In this document: positions 1 through 9,979 of the stretch, one piece after another
How positions within the stretch are numbered: the stretch's first letter is position 1
Layout: every line of letters begins with the position of its first letter
Source: a virus
Virus record (IMG/VR): IMGVR_UViG_3300006969_000021
Coordinates: 1 to 29,870 of that record
DNA length: 29,870 nucleotides
Reading direction: 5' to 3' (one strand)
Program-made: the position numbers and the translations under genes
Notes under the pieces: model-generated
Told to the model about the DNA's origin: nothing
The model's input: only the letters and a program-made list of their open reading frames with translations
The model's database searches: none

Positions 1-647
1 AAGCAGGTATTCAGTACTTTCTTAAGCATATGACCCGTAATATGCCTGAGGAGCTTATCATGCAGTTACAGGACCGCATTAAGATTGTACCGTTAGGAGA
101 GCCATTCGATGTCCTCGATCCTGTTAAGCAGGCAGTCTTACAAGCATACATCGAGAAGCACGAAATCGAGGTTCTATTCCTCGATAGCTTGGGGCGTATT
201 ACTGTTAAGTCTCTCAACAGTGATGAAGATACCAAGACGTTGTTCGACTTTGACTCGAAGCTTCGTAAGAAGTTTGGAATCGCTACTTGGCATGTACATC
301 ATAACCGCAAAGCCACGGCACAAAATAAACAACCTAAGACTCAGGATGATGTCTATGGGTCTGTTTACATCACTGCTTCTGCGACTGACGTTTACGCCTT
401 ATGGTCAAAGGACACAGTAAACACAGACATTAAATTCATCAATCTTAAGCATAGGTACTCCGAGCAAGAGCGTGAGTATGGCGTAGCAACAGGCCAGAAT
501 CTTATGTTTGCAGTACAGACAACCGCTCAACGCAGACTTGCAGCTAGTACGGAGGTTAGCGATAGTGGACTCATTAACTCCCGCGACATCGACGATGACG
601 AGCCTGAGCCGCCCACCCAGGGATATAACATCGGGCTTAGTTTCTAG
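1..647 (+). CDS. RecA/DnaB-type ATPase, C-terminal part (cut by window edge)
   Basis: The reading frame is open from the first complete codon (base 3) through the first ATG at base 30, so this is the 3' end of a gene that starts outside the window. Visible features are a hydrophobic strand ending in an acidic residue (EVLFLDSLGRI), which fits a Walker B motif, and a later TWHVHHNRKA segment like the His/Arg sensor of RecA-fold helicases and RepA-type (AAA_25) ATPases. Walker A must lie upstream. Its place in front of the polymerase genes suggests a replicative helicase or recombination ATPase. The acidic C-terminus overlaps the exonuclease start by 53 bases. DnaB-like, RepA-like and Sak4/RadA-like ATPases cannot be told apart from this half. 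Confidence 0.72.
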   Translation, partial: AGIQYFLKHMTRNMPEELIMQLQDRIKIVPLGEPFDVLDPVKQAVLQAYIEKHEIEVLFLDSLGRITVKSLNSDEDTKTLFDFDSKLRKKFGIATWHVHHNRKATAQNKQPKTQDDVYGSVYITASATDVYALWSKDTVNTDIKFINLKHRYSEQEREYGVATGQNLMFAVQTTAQRRLAASTEVSDSGLINSRDIDDDEPEPPTQGYNIGLSF

Positions 648-1239
648 TCGTACAGGATTCGAGGCCGTTCTTAACGAAATGATTAGGGCTCCACGAGTCT
701 ATTGTGACACAGAGACTAGTCAACTTGGAGACTACAAATCTAAAGAACGTGCTAGAGCTAGTGCTATATGGGACAGTCGTGTCTATGCCACCGGTATCGG
801 TATAGGTTGGAAGATTGATGGTATTCGTAATGAGTTCTACTTACCGTGGCGACATGATGTACCTGACAAACATAATTTACCTAAGCTTTGGTTACCTGAG
901 TTCAAAGAAATATTCGAGACCAAAGAGATAGTTGTACACAACTACTTGTATGACCATCCTTCATTACTAACATTAGGCATAACCATTCCTGAGGATACCT
1001 ATTGGGATACAATGGTTATGGCTCACATGGTTAATGAAGAGTTTCCCTCCAAACAACTCGATTGGCTAGCCAAGTTCGTTCTTAAAGACGACGGCAAGGA
1101 CAAGGAACAACTTAATCAGTTTCTTAAAGCTATGACCTGGCAAGAAGTTCCACCACAAGTTATGGCACCTTACTGTTGCAAAGATGTGAACATGACTGGC
1201 AGGTTATGGGAGGTGTTTATCAGTGAGCTTAAGCCTTGA
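595..1239 (+). CDS. 3'-5' exonuclease domain of a split family A DNA polymerase
   Basis: DEDDy-type exonuclease that would proofread for the polymerase encoded 240 bases downstream. Visible are Exo I (VYCDTETSQ, with Asp and Glu), Exo II (VVHNYLYDHPSL, Asn and Asp) and Exo III (YCCKDVNMTGRL, Tyr and Asp), in the usual order. No polymerase motifs follow; the frame stops soon after Exo III. The ATG at 595 is chosen because the helix before Exo I (FEAVLNEMI) must be included. It has no clear ribosome binding site and sits inside the upstream gene, so translation is probably coupled. The stop overlaps the next gene, whose GTG lies at 1223. Confidence 0.85.
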   Translation: MTSLSRPPRDITSGLVSSRTGFEAVLNEMIRAPRVYCDTETSQLGDYKSKERARASAIWDSRVYATGIGIGWKIDGIRNEFYLPWRHDVPDKHNLPKLWLPEFKEIFETKEIVVHNYLYDHPSLLTLGITIPEDTYWDTMVMAHMVNEEFPSKQLDWLAKFVLKDDGKDKEQLNQFLKAMTWQEVPPQVMAPYCCKDVNMTGRLWEVFISELKP

Positions 1240-1510
1240 AGAAGCCGAGGAACTAGCTTACAATCTTGTCACACGCAGTGAGATAGCTGGTAGGTTAAAC
1301 GTTCATCTACGTACTATGTACGGATGGGTTGAACGACGAGAGCGTAATAACTTCGTTAAACCGTTACGTAAGATTAGCGGTGGTGGAGCAGGGGCACCCT
1401 TTGAGGTTTACTGGTGGCCCGATGTTAAAGAGTGGTATGACACCTATATCCCACGGAGAGGACCTAAGGTAAATAATGGGGCAAGACCTGTTACACCTGT
1501 GGGAAAGTGA
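1223..1510 (+). CDS. Small helix-turn-helix protein between the two polymerase halves
   Basis: 95-aa protein with a GTG start preceded by a good ribosome binding site (GGGAGGTG, 1208-1215). Residues about 17-40 (VTRSEIAGRLNVHLRTMYGW) read as a helix-turn-helix of the MerR/excisionase (HTH_17) kind. A later VYWWPDVKEW segment is typical of the end of such winged domains, where it follows the recognition helix. It overlaps the exonuclease gene by 17 bases and the polymerase gene by 35 bases, so all three are probably translated together. It could be a DNA-binding accessory factor of the polymerase, a small regulator, or a degenerate inserted gene. The sequence does not decide between these. Confidence 0.7.
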   Translation: MSLSLEEAEELAYNLVTRSEIAGRLNVHLRTMYGWVERRERNNFVKPLRKISGGGAGAPFEVYWWPDVKEWYDTYIPRRGPKVNNGARPVTPVGK

Positions 1511-2693
1511 AAGACGCTTTCTCAATGTTCTGTCTAAGGTAGGTAGTCGTGGGCTTAAAGCGGATTTGGATAAGTGTGCAGTCTTATCAGAGCAAGCGGA
1601 ACAAGAAATGGAAACTCGTAGAGTTCGGCTTGGCTTTGATCCTGGGTCTCGTCTTGACCTCGAACGGGTCCTCCTTACCGAACTCAATCTTCCTGTAGTT
1701 CTTCGCTCTCCTAAGACTGGTAACCCTAGTTTTAACAAAGTCGCTATGGCTGAGTACGACGTTATGCTATCAGCTATGGGCAGTCAAGTAGCACAAGATA
1801 TCTTGGCCTACAGGGGGTGGCAGCAAGCTAACAGTTTCTACTATGCTGGTTACCCTAGAATGGTAAGTCCTGATGGAAGAGTACGACCTAACTATAAGCC
1901 AACTGGCACAAGAACTACAAGACTCTCCTGCGAGTTGCCCAACTTACAACAAATACCCCGTAGATCTGATAAACCCTGGTCTGGCCCGGTCAAATCCTTA
2001 TTTATACCTACCAACGAGGATTGGGTACTTTGGGATTTTGACTATGCCAGCCTGGAATACCGAATCGCTTTATTTTATGCGGGAGAAACCGAACTCATTG
2101 AACGAGTTAATTCTGGAGCAGATTTCCATGAAGTCACTGCCGATCTCATTTACGAACAGACCGGAGTCAGATTAACTAGATACGATGCTAAGCAGATGAA
2201 CTTCGCTATTGTGTACGGCGCAGGAGCGGAGAAGTTAGCTTACATGCTTAAGTCAACAAGGGATGAACATAGTGGAAAGGCAGCCGATGACCAAGTTGCT
2301 AAACTCATCAAAGCTTATCATACTGCTTTCCCCGGCTTCCGTCGCACTGCTAGAGACGTTGCGAAGGTTGCTAAGTCCCGAGGTTATGTTAAGCTTTGGA
2401 CAGGCCGCCGCCGCCATTTTAATAGCATCTTTAATCGTGGAAAAGAGAAGGACGCCTGGAACTCCATCTGCCAGGGAGGCGGCGCAGAAATCGTCAAACA
2501 CGCAATGTTGAGACTTAACGACCAAGTCGATAACCGAGATTGCAAGATGGTCTTACAGGTTCATGACTCAGTAGTGTTTGAGATTCGTAAAGAAAAGCTA
2601 CCCTACTATAAGGAAACCATCAGACAAATCATGGAAGATAACCCGCAGTTCCCGGTTAAGTTCCATGTGGAGGATAAGCAATGGGCGACTTAA
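1476..2693 (+). CDS. Family A DNA polymerase, polymerase domain
   Basis: 405-aa stand-alone polymerase domain. It has the TTRLSCELPNLQQIP segment (147-161), motif A DFDYASLEYR (catalytic Asp189), motif B RYDAKQMNFAIVYG (Arg235, Lys239, Phe243, Tyr247) and motif C QVHDSVVFE (His363, Asp364). Motif C reads HDS where HDE is usual; the metal-binding Asp is kept. Phe243 is in the position of Phe762 of E. coli Pol I, a state reported mostly for virulent phages. At about 405 aa it lacks the exonuclease and 5'-nuclease regions, and the exonuclease is encoded separately upstream. The ATG at 1476 lies 14 bases after GGAGAGG. The end overlaps the MazG-like gene by 13 bases. Confidence 0.93.
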   Translation: MGQDLLHLWESERRFLNVLSKVGSRGLKADLDKCAVLSEQAEQEMETRRVRLGFDPGSRLDLERVLLTELNLPVVLRSPKTGNPSFNKVAMAEYDVMLSAMGSQVAQDILAYRGWQQANSFYYAGYPRMVSPDGRVRPNYKPTGTRTTRLSCELPNLQQIPRRSDKPWSGPVKSLFIPTNEDWVLWDFDYASLEYRIALFYAGETELIERVNSGADFHEVTADLIYEQTGVRLTRYDAKQMNFAIVYGAGAEKLAYMLKSTRDEHSGKAADDQVAKLIKAYHTAFPGFRRTARDVAKVAKSRGYVKLWTGRRRHFNSIFNRGKEKDAWNSICQGGGAEIVKHAMLRLNDQVDNRDCKMVLQVHDSVVFEIRKEKLPYYKETIRQIMEDNPQFPVKFHVEDKQWAT

Positions 2694-3031
2694 GTACAGA
2701 AATAATTGAGCTTCAAGATATGCAGCAAGAAGTAATGGAGTTTGTTAAAGCTAAAGGTTGGGCTAAAAATTCAGATGAAATCAATTTCCCTGAGGCTATT
2801 GCATTACTCCATTCAGAAGCTAGTGAGGCATTAGAAGCCTGGCGCGAAACAGGTCTTGATGACTATTTTCTTGAGGGTAAACCTGAGGGAGTAGGCTCAG
2901 AATTTGCTGATCTACTTATTAGATTACTTCATTACGCTTCCGTGTATGGAGTAGACTTAGCTTTTCATTTCCGACGTAAAATGGACTATAACTGGACACG
3001 TCCCTATCGACATGGAGGCAAGAGAGCATGA
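2681..3031 (+). CDS. MazG-like nucleotide pyrophosphohydrolase
   Basis: 116-aa all-alpha protein with the two metal-binding acidic clusters of the MazG/dUTPase-like family: ExxE (Glu46 and Glu49, in LLHSEASEALEAWR) and ExxD (Glu74 and Asp77, in GSEFADLLIRLL). The basic tail RKMDYNWTRPYRHGGK matches the end usual in phage MazG-like proteins. The family cleaves nucleoside triphosphates to monophosphate and pyrophosphate; roles proposed in phages are cleaning the dNTP pool or lowering alarmone levels. The ATG is preceded by GGAGG and overlaps the polymerase stop by 13 bases. The substrate cannot be read from sequence. Confidence 0.85.
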   Translation: MGDLSTEIIELQDMQQEVMEFVKAKGWAKNSDEINFPEAIALLHSEASEALEAWRETGLDDYFLEGKPEGVGSEFADLLIRLLHYASVYGVDLAFHFRRKMDYNWTRPYRHGGKRA

Positions 3032-3216: not shown

Positions 3217-3676
3217 TCCGGGTTATCGTAACGGATTAGCCTATTTTGGCGACGACGGAACGCTATATAGACGATTAGTTTTGATAGAAGATGACTTTTT
3301 AAAGTTTCTGAATCTTCCACTACCAGGGAATACAGAAACAATCATCTGTGAAAACTTCCGTATCTTTCCTAACATGGGTCAGCGTTTACTATTGAACACA
3401 ATGGTAGCTGCTCGTATGATAGGAGCAGTGCAGTTAGCTGCTAAACGAGACGGGATTCCGTTGGTCCTACAGGAGCCGCAGGGAATGAGACAGGCTGCTG
3501 CTAACTTAGGTTATAAGTACAGCACTAAGTCACACATCCCTGACCAAATCTCAGCCCATGCTCACGGTACTAAATGGCTAATTGCTACCGGAGTTATCAC
3601 ACTTGCCAAGGCGAGAAAGGATAAGGAGGAGTATGAAGGCAGAAATAGCAGCAAAGCGCAAGCTAGAAAAACTTAA
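3200..3676 (+). CDS. RuvC-like nuclease (Holliday junction resolvase family)
   Basis: 158-aa RNase H-fold nuclease. The N-terminal strand MYLAIDPGYRNGLAYF carries the first catalytic Asp (Asp6) and the Gly turn. TIICENF supplies the second acidic residue (Glu51). A late helix HIPDQISAHAHGTKWL (Asp115, His120, His122) corresponds to the C-terminal acidic/His motif. In phages such enzymes resolve branched replication intermediates before packaging. The ATG at 3200 is chosen because it places the first strand at the N-terminus as in the family; an in-frame ATG lies at 3194. Neither has a strong ribosome binding site, and the gene overlaps its upstream neighbour. The last 44 bases overlap the next gene. 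Confidence 0.78.
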   Translation: MYLAIDPGYRNGLAYFGDDGTLYRRLVLIEDDFLKFLNLPLPGNTETIICENFRIFPNMGQRLLLNTMVAARMIGAVQLAAKRDGIPLVLQEPQGMRQAAANLGYKYSTKSHIPDQISAHAHGTKWLIATGVITLAKARKDKEEYEGRNSSKAQARKT

Positions 3677-4235
3677 GGCTGCTGGTGCTGAGTTCTCTGA
3701 GGAAGAGGAAGAGCTACTCTTAGAGAACTTCATGAAGGAGAAGGCTGCTAAGAAGTATGCAGAGGACGAAAAATCTCGTGAAGCTGAATCTGTCTTGGCT
3801 TTAATCGCAAGACAAGAATGGTTCACAGCTAAGACATGCAGACAGTGTGAGTTACCGTTTGCTACTAATTATCGAGACGTTGCCTATTGTTCTGTCCCCT
3901 GTAGGAAGTTAGCTTTAGAGAAGCACGGAATTACGTGGAATCCTTCTCGTGATCCTGAATTACGATGGGGCTATAACGGAGAGAGGTACCATGACGATGA
4001 AGGTAAGGAACACAACAAACCTTACCCCGCACCTCTCGTTGTCCCGCCAGAGGCTCTTAAAGTACTCGTACGCAACCCAGCGATACGACGCTTCTTTAAA
4101 GAGGCAATGCTTGAAATTAAGCCGGAAGAGCTAGAGACTCCCGAACCTGAACCTCAGACTGTAATTGAGCCTGTTCCTGAGCCAGAGCCGCAAGAGTCAG
4201 CCGAGCAGAAACTTCTCGCCGCTCTCGGGGGCTAA
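3633..4235 (+). CDS. Zinc-finger protein of unknown function with Pro-Glu-rich tail
   Basis: 200-aa protein with a strong ribosome binding site (AAGGAGG) in front of the ATG at 3633. Residues 1-60 are a charged Lys/Glu-rich helix, probably coiled coil. Cys69, Cys72, Cys86 and Cys90 form a C-x2-C-x13-C-x3-C pattern fitting a treble-clef or FCS-like zinc finger, followed by a GITWNPSRDPELRWGYNGE segment. The tail has PEPEPQ and PVPEPEPQ repeats and ends in LLAALGG. It is the last gene of the plus-strand block. Its 3' end overlaps the convergent WhiB-like gene by 119 bases. A nucleic-acid-binding role is likely but unproven. Confidence 0.75.
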   Translation: MKAEIAAKRKLEKLKAAGAEFSEEEEELLLENFMKEKAAKKYAEDEKSREAESVLALIARQEWFTAKTCRQCELPFATNYRDVAYCSVPCRKLALEKHGITWNPSRDPELRWGYNGERYHDDEGKEHNKPYPAPLVVPPEALKVLVRNPAIRRFFKEAMLEIKPEELETPEPEPQTVIEPVPEPEPQESAEQKLLAALGG

Positions 4236-4434
4236 GACTTCCCCACCACCCTATGTTATCTGCTCGTCTAAAACACCGCTTCATTACAGGGCAGTTAGCG
4301 CAGAGCCTCTTAGCGCCACCGTATCGCTGAGAATAAATGATACCGTCTAAGATAGCGAAGGCAGCTTTACGATCGCCTAATTCATATTCTAACCAGGTAA
4401 CGTAATCGGTACAGTTACCTCTTAACTCGGCCAT
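4117..4434 (-). CDS. WhiB-like iron-sulfur transcription regulator
   Basis: 105-aa protein with the WhiB signature: Cys8, then Cys45-x2-Cys48-x5-Cys54 (CANCPVMKRC), followed by IGWWGSLSPRERR, the equivalent of the G[VI]WGG turn and basic segment. The four cysteines bind a 4Fe-4S cluster, and these proteins act with the actinobacterial primary sigma factor. The ATG at 4434 is preceded by an excellent site (GGAAGGAGG), which rules out the longer frame from 4524 that reads through the hairpin. It is transcribed against the replication block and its end overlaps the last plus-strand gene. Phage copies are known to alter host WhiB-controlled genes; the target here is unknown. This is the strongest single clue to the host phylum. 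Confidence 0.9.
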   Translation of the reverse strand: MAELRGNCTDYVTWLEYELGDRKAAFAILDGIIYSQRYGGAKRLCANCPVMKRCFRRADNIGWWGSLSPRERREVSARLTLAALAQEQAQLQSEVQVRESLALPA

Positions 4435-4488
4435 AACCGACCTCCTTCCCTCTTGACACCATGATGCACCAGGGAGGGGGCATGGATC

Positions 4489-4517
4489 AACCCCCGGACT
4501 CAGAAAGTCCGGGGGTT
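4489..4517. terminator. Perfect 12-bp hairpin between lysis block and whiB-like gene
   Basis: AACCCCCGGACT (4489-4500) and AGTCCGGGGGTT (4506-4517) pair perfectly around a CAGAA loop. On the minus strand it follows the last late gene (ends 4534) and precedes the WhiB-like gene, so it can end late transcription. On the plus strand it lies beyond the replication block and is followed by TTCT. It probably works in both directions. Confidence 0.85.
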
Positions 4518-4533
4518 TCTCCATAGAAACCGC

Positions 4534-4731: not shown

Positions 4732-5606
4732 GAACTCACCTGACTGTCGATACTATCTAACTTCGCCTCTAACGAGGTCGCAATGTTGACTAACTGCGAC
4801 TTAGTAGCCGTGTCGTCAACGTTTTCAGCAATCGTCTTAAGGGTCTCGGCGAGTGCCTCATCCCGAGCCTTAAGATTTCCCCATCGCTTCTTCTCAGCAG
4901 TTACGTATAAAGCAAAACGCTTAGCAAGTTCGTCAATATCCCCTCGGGCTGCCGAACCATTACGTAAAGCGTCAGCGACGGTAAGCTTAGGATCATCCCT
5001 AAGTTGATGATCCATCAAGTCCTGTAAATCCACGTCGTTCTCTTCCTTTCTCCACTGTTGTAGATTGAACGGCTTAGGAAGTGGCGACGGACGCCAATGG
5101 TAATCCCTATGCTCTGGGCTTAAACCGTCCATACCTCGACGGTAACTTCCCCATTGAGAAATAGCGCCCGCAGCAGAAGGTTGCGCTCCGCCTCCTGCTA
5201 CTCCTTTAAACTCATCCAGTAAGGTCCAATGCATATGCTCATCGAACCCTCCATGACTTAAGTCTCGTCTCCATACTGCCCACGCTTCGTTACGACTAGC
5301 ATGGATAACCTTGCGCTCTTCACTTGAATCGATATCCCAGACACGGGTATCGATACAGGAACTTAAGTCATGGTAACCGGCAGATTGTGTAGCACCTCCA
5401 CCAGCAAAAACCATGAAGGCACCCTGCACAATATCTAACTCATTAGCCAGATTATCGCCTAAGCGATCCATCACGGCTAACCATGCACCCCACATGCGCT
5501 CTGACATATAGATGGGGCGCCCTGACGAGTCAGTACCAATCTTAATCACATGGTACTTCCCGCCGAGTGTGAGGCTGTTAAGCCTCTTATATTTAATGTA
5601 TGCCAT
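4728..5606 (-). CDS. M15-like zinc peptidase, probable endolysin
   Basis: 292-aa protein with the zinc-ligand spacing of D-Ala-D-Ala carboxypeptidase/VanY-type (M15) enzymes: SAGYHDLSSCID (His79-x6-Asp86) and a later DEHMHW (His124, His126). In phages such enzymes cut peptidoglycan stem peptides or cross-links. Residues about 135-160 hold a Gly/Ala-rich stretch and a GSYRRG motif. The C-terminal hundred residues are helical and charged and could bind the wall or form a coiled coil. It directly follows the 122-aa membrane protein (TAA then ATG) and overlaps the holin candidate, the usual lysis-cassette arrangement. No other free lysin candidate lies in the cassette. Confidence 0.72.
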   Translation of the reverse strand: MAYIKYKRLNSLTLGGKYHVIKIGTDSSGRPIYMSERMWGAWLAVMDRLGDNLANELDIVQGAFMVFAGGGATQSAGYHDLSSCIDTRVWDIDSSEERKVIHASRNEAWAVWRRDLSHGGFDEHMHWTLLDEFKGVAGGGAQPSAAGAISQWGSYRRGMDGLSPEHRDYHWRPSPLPKPFNLQQWRKEENDVDLQDLMDHQLRDDPKLTVADALRNGSAARGDIDELAKRFALYVTAEKKRWGNLKARDEALAETLKTIAENVDDTATKSQLVNIATSLEAKLDSIDSQVSS

Positions 5607-5975
5607 TTAATCTTTCTCCAGGCAATCCTGTAGGTCTTTTGCATTTACTACTATGGCTACCTCCTGTAATGAGTGCTTAGCTTTATCACTTGACTGCAAT
5701 AAAGGTACTGCACTAGTTTGGTCTTTAATATTCCTAAGGAATGTACTAAATTCATCAAAGAATTTCACTAGTGCTGCTCTATACTTTTGGGACGATTCAT
5801 CCCTCGTACCCACGGACTTAATGGCACATGTAACAATGTCATTCGTTTGCTTATTCTCAGTATGCCATAAGTAATAGGAAGGACTAATCATTAAAAAGCC
5901 TATCACAACAGTAGCTATTACCGCTGTAATTCCGGGATTGCGATTAATCCATAGCGGACTATCTCGGTTAGGCAT
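5607..5975 (-). CDS. Single-pass membrane protein in the lysis cassette
   Basis: 122-aa protein with one N-terminal membrane segment (about residues 16-36, TAVIATVVIGFLMISPSYYL) after a short basic/polar start, then a soluble, probably helical domain of about 85 residues with two Cys (VTCAI, LQDCL). The topology, a membrane anchor plus an external helical domain, resembles spanin-like or lysis-regulator proteins, but no family is recognised. It sits between two other small membrane proteins and the M15-like peptidase, so a lysis role is the likely reading. Its start overlaps the stop of the 36-aa gene. Confidence 0.6.
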   Translation of the reverse strand: MPNRDSPLWINRNPGITAVIATVVIGFLMISPSYYLWHTENKQTNDIVTCAIKSVGTRDESSQKYRAALVKFFDEFSTFLRNIKDQTSAVPLLQSSDKAKHSLQEVAIVVNAKDLQDCLEKD

Positions 5976-7571: not shown

Positions 7572-9979
7572 GGTGAAAGATCAACCCCAAACTGCTGCAA
7601 CAGTATCTGGCGAATCCTAGCATTATCCTGACTGCTAAGATTACCCTCGAAGAGTAGTCGGTAAAGCTCGTTACGCTGATCCCTCTCCGTAAGCTCCCGT
7701 GAGTACAGACCAGTTGTAGCAGTAGCAACAGGACCCAGGTTACCTTCGCCGCCCTTAAATGCACCAGTAGCACTAAGAACCTGACGTAAGTAAGGAACAG
7801 GTAGCTGGTTAAGTCCGTACTCTGCCGGATTACCGATAGGCACGTCCTGACCAGCAATAAGCGTTTGATGTCCAGTAGCTAATTCGTACGGAATCCTAAT
7901 CAGAGGGTTAGTCTGCTGCATTAGCGTGTCGCCGAGTCCTTGGAGGTTTCCTGACCCAAAGGCAGAGTTGGCCTGGAAACTAAGAATGTCGCTAAAAGGA
8001 CTCGGCATCCGCAGGAACATTGGGTTCCCTGTAGTTGGTGTATCGTAGCCTGGCTCATATCCACCCTCTTTAAGCCATTGGGGGACGAGCAAGTTTTCAA
8101 GTCCTGGTAAGGGATCATCTTCCGTCGGCCAATACCCGTAAGCTCCGGATAGCGCCCTAGTAATTTTCTCCGGAACAACAACTTTACCTGGATGCTCGAA
8201 CATGAACCGAGCCATAAGTGGTAACGCTTTACGTGTCCACTTGTAGAACGGGATAACGTTAGACAATGTCTGTTGCTCGAACTTAGTAAAGTCCGTATAA
8301 TCGAAGTGAGTCATACGGACACGTTGTCCTGCCCACTCCATAGCTTCATCTAAAGTAATAGCCTTAGATGGATTCGTTCTAACCAGGTGGATAAAGTGAG
8401 CAATACGCATGTATTCTTCACGTTGCTCAGAGATTAACCGGAACGGCTTTTCCACGGCCTGTCTAACATCAGATGCCCGCGTACCGAACGTGTTAATCTC
8501 ACTCTCTAAGTCACCAAACTCTCCCACCTGTAAATTCTGACGGATGCCATGCTTGTTTAGTCCTGCAAACAACTCAGCATCCGTAACGTAATCCTTGACC
8601 TTACCCTCAGCGTCTCTGAGATTAGCAGAGTTCCGGAATAGTGGCTTATTAGTGACCCGAAGAGCGTTTGCCATAGGGTCGCCAGGAATACGAAGTAACG
8701 GTGACTGTGTTTCTGTAACATGCTCAAACTTTTTCATTCCTGAGAAGTTGAGTCCGAGCATCCTAGCTGACGCACGGTAGTCAGCTGGGTTAACTGCACC
8801 ATCGATAAAGTTGACGAAAGCGTCACCCATCATGTTACGAATATGGTATCCGAGCATTGGCTGAGTAACCCAGAACTTCCAAGGATTTGTAATCCTGTTG
8901 AAGAACTTAACCCAGCCTTTCCACTCTCGCTGATCCTCAAACGTTTTCATGATACGTTCGATACTAGTAGCAACGTCCTTGTTAAAAAGGACACCGTCTA
9001 ACTGCTTGCTACCCTTAATCTTAGCTTCACGCCAACCACGCTTTTCTAGATCACTAAGGATAGCCTTGGCGATGTTATCCCCGGCACCCATAGCCTTAGA
9101 GAAACCGAAGGATTCAACCATAGCTTCGTACATCTTACGGCGAGCGTTAGCATGTTCCATCGCCGCAATAGCCATCCATAAAGCGTGACCGCCGTCTTTC
9201 ATTCCTTTCATCTTAGTATCTGTTGCAACTCTAAGCAGTGAGGAACGAATCCACTCCTGATCTTCCCACGCTCGTTGGAGTTCATCTTTCTTACCTTTAG
9301 CTAGCTTACCCTTCGAGGTAATCCAGCCATTCTCCATCGCAATTTCTTTCTTGCTCTTTTTCTTAAAGAATGCAGGTAAGCCAGGAGCAAGCTCCCGGTT
9401 AAGTTCCTCAGGACTAAAGGGTAGCTCACCCATGTCGCCTCTGGCCCGTTCATCCAAAGACGCCACATGCCTACTGAACAACTCTGCGGCGTCGTCACTT
9501 TGGGCGGCACCAGGAGCGCGGACTGATAACTCGCCGTTAGTAGACTGCCGCCGCAACCCCATAACCCAGGCTGCCCTACGACTGTCCTTATCTATCTGCT
9601 TAAAGGTTGATTCAACGTAACGCCCTAAAGCCATAGTAGACGAGCGGCCCAAGTGCATAGCTTCAACTTTAACTCGGTACACATCTTCAATGGTCTTGTA
9701 TGAGTTACGCAGTGCTGATTGCAACTTTTCGCTAGTGACTCTCAGTGGCTTAACTTGAGCAATCTTAAGCATACCCTCGACACCCTTAGAGGGTATAATT
9801 GGCAGCCGTACCTTCCGAGTACCGATACCGAGTGTACGCTTATAATCTGCTCCCACGACTGTACGGTAATTATCCAGTAAAGTCTTGGTTGTCATTTCTT
9901 CTGTTTCCTGTGCTGCTTTGGTTGCAGCCTCCGTAGCTACTGTATTCGGAGACATAAACTTGCCCTTGCGGTCCTTCAA
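7568..9979 (-). CDS. Large internal virion (ejection) protein, C-terminal part of a split gene
   Basis: 803 residues if started at TTG 9979, which has no good ribosome binding site; the first ATG is at 9955. The frame is in fact open and protein-like back to 10063, giving WQKVYGDTLENLKKIGPVG before the TTG, so this is very probably the rest of the gene at 10000-10971 after a one-base frame change. Many charged helices occur, with a region FYKWTRKALPLMARFMF seen in large polyvalent (LPD38-like) phage proteins. Position after the tail hub genes and before wall-degrading enzymes fits a protein injected with the DNA. The LPD38 assignment is from memory of the motif. Confidence 0.7.
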   Translation of the reverse strand: MKDRKGKFMSPNTVATEAATKAAQETEEMTTKTLLDNYRTVVGADYKRTLGIGTRKVRLPIIPSKGVEGMLKIAQVKPLRVTSEKLQSALRNSYKTIEDVYRVKVEAMHLGRSSTMALGRYVESTFKQIDKDSRRAAWVMGLRRQSTNGELSVRAPGAAQSDDAAELFSRHVASLDERARGDMGELPFSPEELNRELAPGLPAFFKKKSKKEIAMENGWITSKGKLAKGKKDELQRAWEDQEWIRSSLLRVATDTKMKGMKDGGHALWMAIAAMEHANARRKMYEAMVESFGFSKAMGAGDNIAKAILSDLEKRGWREAKIKGSKQLDGVLFNKDVATSIERIMKTFEDQREWKGWVKFFNRITNPWKFWVTQPMLGYHIRNMMGDAFVNFIDGAVNPADYRASARMLGLNFSGMKKFEHVTETQSPLLRIPGDPMANALRVTNKPLFRNSANLRDAEGKVKDYVTDAELFAGLNKHGIRQNLQVGEFGDLESEINTFGTRASDVRQAVEKPFRLISEQREEYMRIAHFIHLVRTNPSKAITLDEAMEWAGQRVRMTHFDYTDFTKFEQQTLSNVIPFYKWTRKALPLMARFMFEHPGKVVVPEKITRALSGAYGYWPTEDDPLPGLENLLVPQWLKEGGYEPGYDTPTTGNPMFLRMPSPFSDILSFQANSAFGSGNLQGLGDTLMQQTNPLIRIPYELATGHQTLIAGQDVPIGNPAEYGLNQLPVPYLRQVLSATGAFKGGEGNLGPVATATTGLYSRELTERDQRNELYRLLFEGNLSSQDNARIRQILLQQFGVDLSP

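Follow-up and report, generated by a model that had tools for sequence, protein, structure and literature searches.

Organization of the replication operon

The DNA analyzed here (referred to as the window, 29,870 bases at its full length) is an IMG/VR virus record which possesses genes for a major head protein, a portal protein and a terminase. Based upon these genes, a WhiB-like gene and the named relatives considered below, the phage probably infects actinobacteria. The gene for the WhiB-like transcription factor (4117-4524) is opposed to the replication operon and overlaps the end of an ORF at 3582-4235.

The replication operon is transcribed rightward from the left end of the window and comprises genes for a primase/helicase, an exonuclease, a helix-turn-helix (HTH) protein, a polymerase, a pyrophosphatase-like protein and a resolvase-like protein (Table 1). 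The original prediction was of a family A DNA polymerase divided between two ORFs with an HTH gene in between, and the three ORFs proved to be present, intact and overlapping. The HTH gene shares 17 nt with the exonuclease gene and 35 nt with the polymerase gene, while the end of the primase/helicase gene overlaps the start of the exonuclease gene by 83 nt (565-647). Overlap of the helicase gene with the polymerase region which follows it also occurs in phage Casserole, in L043 and in a different phage, L008; with the fused polymerase genes of Casserole and L043 it amounts to 44-68 nt. No excess of promoter-like sites was found between the exonuclease and polymerase genes (four, against a mean of 3.4 in shuffled sequence).

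The pyrophosphatase-like gene shows 90% DNA identity to its counterpart in L008 (5221-5571), third positions accounting for 32 of the 40 differences, whereas an alignment which takes in the adjoining polymerase shows only approximately 72%. The contrast within this neighbourhood suggests either recent exchange or unusual constraint of this gene.

Table 1. Features of the replication operon at the left end of the window.
Feature	Position	Strand	Evidence and remarks
Primase/helicase, C-terminal part	3..647	+	PF13481 AAA_25 [2.2e-6]; phrog_6012 DNA helicase [2.3e-9]; runs off the window
Shine-Dalgarno site of exonuclease gene, GGAGGT	551..556	+	8 nt upstream of GTG 565
Stand-alone 3'-5' proofreading exonuclease, 224 aa	565..1239	+	PF01612 [1.4e-11]; GTG start
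Shine-Dalgarno site of HTH gene, GGAGGTG	1209..1215	+	7 nt from HTH start
Winged HTH protein, 95 aa, excisionase/MerR/BldC-like fold	1223..1510	+	Sub-threshold HTH matches; PHROG match
Shine-Dalgarno-like site of polymerase gene, AAGG	1466..1469	+	Within HTH gene; 6 nt from polymerase start
Family A DNA polymerase catalytic domain, 405 aa, no exonuclease domain	1476..2693	+	PF00476 [6.7e-68]
Pyrophosphatase family (phage) gene	2681..3031	+	phrog_3301 [3.3e-29]; downstream in operon, overlaps polymerase end

Exonuclease and polymerase genes

The exonuclease was identified as a DnaQ-like, PolI-type 3'-5' proofreading enzyme through its PF01612 match and the carboxylates of intact Exo I (DTE), Exo II (HN..YD) and Exo III (YCCKD) motifs. 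Its start had been placed at ATG 595; since a Shine-Dalgarno match was found upstream of GTG 565 and none upstream of ATG 595, the former is the better start. The polymerase belongs to family A by its PF00476 match and by motifs A (DYASLEYR), B (RYDAKQMNFAIVYGAG) and C (QVHDS), all intact and bearing the catalytic Asp residues. In motif C, HDS takes the place of HDE, as it also does in fused relatives such as Casserole. The view that both catalytic parts are intact was therefore borne out.

The exonuclease protein covers positions 302-478 of the DNA polymerase I model PRK05755 and the polymerase protein positions 489-878, the break lying between 478 and 489, so that little or nothing has been lost; the two intact ORFs together equal one gene of the fused relatives. 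In the predicted structure of one of these, L043 (mean pLDDT 90), a three-residue loop (194-196) joins the last helix of the exonuclease domain (166-193) to the first of the polymerase domain (197-216), and by alignment the break in the window falls at this loop, within a few residues. It is exactly the exonuclease/polymerase domain boundary of the Klenow-type enzymes, which are the textbook example of a single chain combining proofreading with synthesis.

Conservation of the split

Two halves of what is normally a single gene might suggest an artefact or decay, that is, a sequencing error, a pseudogene, or a frameshift or intron by which the halves are rejoined. We regard this as extremely improbable. 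The window DNA recurs with 100% identity in three further contigs of IMG/VR (one of which ends inside the polymerase gene), and the search for relatives with the same three-gene order was rewarded in the diverged L008, whose proteins show approximately 48-49% (exonuclease), 35% (HTH) and 63-65% (polymerase) identity to those of the window and in which the 35-nt HTH-polymerase overlap is identical. Frame error, pseudogene and assembly fault were rejected upon these two grounds. The motifs are intact and the halves have their own ribosome binding sites; fused relatives were found only at approximately 37-44% polymerase identity or less, and no close relative with a single fused gene points to a frame error here. 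No Rfam intron was detected between the halves in the window at either gathering or relaxed threshold, nor was a group I intron or other RNA found in the gaps of L059, L063, L074, L055, L058, L062, L008 and L039.

A dispensable exonuclease should drift after the split. The exonucleases of the window and L008 share 49% identity at 64% polymerase identity, and fused pairs at 58-72% polymerase identity have a mean exonuclease identity of 48.8% (sd 6.0, n = 13); in other closely related split pairs the exonuclease identity is at or above the fused averages. Because Exo I-III have been kept and divergence is no faster than in fused enzymes, the split exonucleases look functional. Divergence in step with the polymerase supports continued joint function of the two, without proving docking. 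With the layout kept in L008, the original suggestion that the split is real and probably functional rather than decayed thus stands.

The HTH gene

As had been noted, the HTH gene has its own good ribosome binding site. Its product matches a PHROG annotated as "DNA binding protein" [6.5e-6], while the HTH family scores all fall under their cut-offs (HTH_23, 18.1 vs 24.6 bits; TIGR01764, 15.9 vs 28.8 bits, E 0.013). The predicted fold (mean pLDDT 73) consists of an HTH, a beta wing and a C-terminal helix. The nearest folds are excisionases, the HTH domains of small terminases and BldC (Z at most 6.9), and since Z values under 8 may reflect a common arrangement only, the structure does not single out the excisionase fold. 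Searches of Pfam, PHROGs and NCBIfam yielded only HTH matches for the gap gene and no nuclease domain, so that it does not encode a homing endonuclease.

Homologs are few: only weak matches were seen, in Gordonia phage Agueybana, in Rhodococcus plasmids and in one Caudoviricetes record, and for the L008 protein none was found in phages. The HTH profile gave no match in 24 relative records lacking the gene at this position, split or fused, which were searched whole (19 together with G001, G002, G006, G007 and Casserole, the window's own relatives serving as positive control in the search of these last five). As many of the records are incomplete, the absence is suggestive rather than conclusive, although the gap itself is covered in the split ones. 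Between the window and L008 the HTH protein diverges fastest of the three (35% identity vs 48% for the exonuclease and 65% for the polymerase). Different codons are used for 14 of 24 identical residues in the part compared, which fits selection on the protein, the contrast between codon positions being weak. The exactly kept 35-nt overlap with the polymerase gene hints at translational coupling.

Recurrence of the split among relatives

Of the 80 polymerase loci found by a profile scan, most are fused. Separate exonuclease and polymerase genes, all with intact Exo I-III, also occur in L039/L016, L055, L058, L059, L062, L063 and L074, the evidence coming mostly from metagenome contigs without a cultured host. 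Each of the named relatives inspected (Casserole, Shocker, ctEqG8, DS1, Phendrix, Big4 and TSP4), every isolated phage among them, has one polymerase gene, and scans of genome contigs gave no cellular relatives. The split polymerases start approximately 6-14 residues before a helix with the conserved sequence [LY]W[ED]xE, excepting L059, the start of which is uncertain.

What lies in the gap varies. The window and L008 have the HTH gene there, and L055 has a pair of small genes without assignment. Three genes, one of them a SLOG-family YAcAr gene, separate the halves of L074; L063 has a short ORF at this place and L059 a small one. In L039, L058 and L062 the gap extends over 3.6-4.3 kb and holds many genes, among them a probable lysis cassette.

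Several of these genes deserve mention in their own right. The YspA/SLOG-family (YAcAr) gene of L074 occupies 5434-5805. The putative lysis cassettes (L039 7517-11773, L058 1750-5986 and L062 2426-5989) lie on the replication strand; their candidate genes, assigned partly by reading of the sequence, specify a peptidase-like or peptidoglycan-binding protein and a holin-like ORF. The lysis genes of the window are found elsewhere, on the other strand. L039 has, between its PolI-type exonuclease and its polymerase, a further 3'-5' exonuclease (8174-8695), which belongs to the exoribonuclease Rv2179c-like family. A more distant polymerase, L025 (2408-5014), occurs as three consecutive ORFs with a break inside the exonuclease domain; this may represent a genuine gene in three pieces or the outcome of sequence errors, and it was excluded from the count of split placements given below.

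On a polymerase tree of 50 rows the split/fused label needs five changes, three of which are forced by well-supported branches alone, and the split rows formed one group in none of 200 bootstrap trees. The window and L008 are a pair of their own (support 100/100) beside the fused L043. With the distant rows removed at least four changes were needed and a single clade of split rows was rejected (AU p = 0.018), as it was on a smaller set (p = 0.012). The split at the exonuclease/polymerase boundary has apparently arisen several times, with placements at four or more separate points on the tree; independent fissions and fewer fissions followed by re-fusions are not fully separable by the tree.

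Interpretation of the split

The explanation which we favor, and consider probable, is a genuine and repeated fission whose halves dock without a covalent link, with an HTH protein specific to this lineage. A single-gene family A phage polymerase, made up of exonuclease and polymerase, would have undergone fission exactly at the domain boundary, and the two halves would now be separate translation products of a single replication operon with overlapping genes. The separate exonuclease would most likely dock non-covalently on the polymerase at the position that it has in the fused enzyme, and the two subunits would presumably form a functional proofreading polymerase. The HTH gene, specifying a small DNA-binding protein, would have come to occupy the break in this lineage; it is probably co-translated with the polymerase, and its product is probably a regulator or other DNA-binding factor which is dispensable for keeping the halves in contact, for example a putative lineage-limited autoregulator or replication-site binder.

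The original prediction had offered a different role, in which the HTH protein brings the two parts together on DNA. That it is a true third subunit, tethering or recruiting exonuclease and polymerase to DNA, would accord with a gene which overlaps both neighbours and was retained in fixed order in the diverged L008, and the exactly kept overlap with the polymerase gene, which speaks against our main reading, would equally fit a functional link between HTH protein and polymerase. Set against this are the unrelated gap genes of the other split lineages, the absence of homologs from the 24 relative records and the fastest divergence of the three proteins, and we consider such a tether decidedly unlikely. 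Because the same break apparently arose several times with different gap genes, the HTH gene is probably a lineage-specific passenger and not the glue between the halves; since other lineages have the same split without it, it is not a general requirement. The other option offered originally, insertion of a gene which became part of the operon, agrees better with these findings than does bridging.

Such an insertion might itself have caused the split, with a homing endonuclease or an excisionase-carrying element as its agent and the HTH gene as the remnant. Homing endonucleases are known to make genes in pieces (PMC2988022), and the HTH protein resembles excisionase-type folds (RdfS, Z 6.9; TIGR01764, E 0.013). 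A mobile origin and the fission with docking that we favor could both be true. We find nevertheless neither a nuclease domain, an intron or other Rfam family nor a jump in composition; the cargo varies between lineages and the break is a clean one at a domain boundary, not at a catalytic target site, all of which makes this origin quite unlikely. Alternatively the halves may be uncoupled, the polymerase lacking proofreading of its own and the free exonuclease having another task such as DNA degradation or repair. Stand-alone phage exonuclease families do exist (phrog_403), and in some relatives the two genes are 4 kb apart, which indicates that adjacent co-translation is not required. Since the exonuclease diverges in step with the polymerase as in fused enzymes, and both halves are kept in every split relative with both sides of the break on the contig, uncoupling appears unlikely.

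Under the favored reading, repeated separation at the same loop offers a test, made by nature, of whether the two domains must be covalently linked for proofreading, and this clade could provide polymerases with detachable proofreading. The exonuclease/polymerase break is, in addition, a recurrent point of gene insertion in phage replication operons. A broader proposal, which we put forward only tentatively, is that the exonuclease repeatedly became a detachable, trans-acting polymerase subunit with fidelity set by subunit supply, that the boundary served as a recurrent point of gene entry, and that the lineage of the window recruited there a winged HTH protein coupled to translation of the polymerase.

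Comparison with known systems

Fused family A polymerases with 32-38% polymerase identity to the window occur in the Arthrobacter Jasminevirus phages (Casserole and Jasmine), Microbacterium phage Shocker and Cellulosimicrobium phage DS1. These phages share with the window the same exonuclease and polymerase motifs and the operon order of primase/helicase, polymerase, small genes and, in most of them, resolvase. Unlike the window, they have exonuclease and polymerase in one gene and no HTH gene there.

The structural neighbours of the HTH protein, RdfS [8dgl], BldC [6ama] and Pukovnik Xis [4j2n], likewise display an HTH, a beta wing and a C-terminal helix, as predicted for the window protein; at Z values of at most 6.9 and identities of 11-18% their functions are not transferable.

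Genes in pieces which reassemble into active enzymes are known from T4-like phages. Gene 43 is split into 43A and 43B in Aeromonas phages 25 and 44RR, the phage 25 products co-purifying with polymerase activity, and the split NrdA of Aeh1 is functional (PMC2988022). These are a family B polymerase and a ribonucleotide reductase, respectively, in place of the family A enzyme of the window, and unlike the latter they occur together with homing endonucleases or with a spacer that is not translated.

The OM43 phages MEP401 and MEP402 resemble the window in that their family A polymerase is encoded by two ORFs, which are separated by a small ORF without assignment. Their break is inside the polymerase domain, the exonuclease staying with the N-terminal part of the polymerase, and the authors suspected an intron (PMC10580990). 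The split in the window is not of this type, as its break is at the exonuclease/polymerase boundary (PolI model 478-489) and no intron was found. In the open-access literature we found no report of a family A split at this boundary in phages, recurrent or not. Split phage polymerases are therefore known, including family A enzymes broken elsewhere; what is new is the recurrence of the break at the proofreading boundary.
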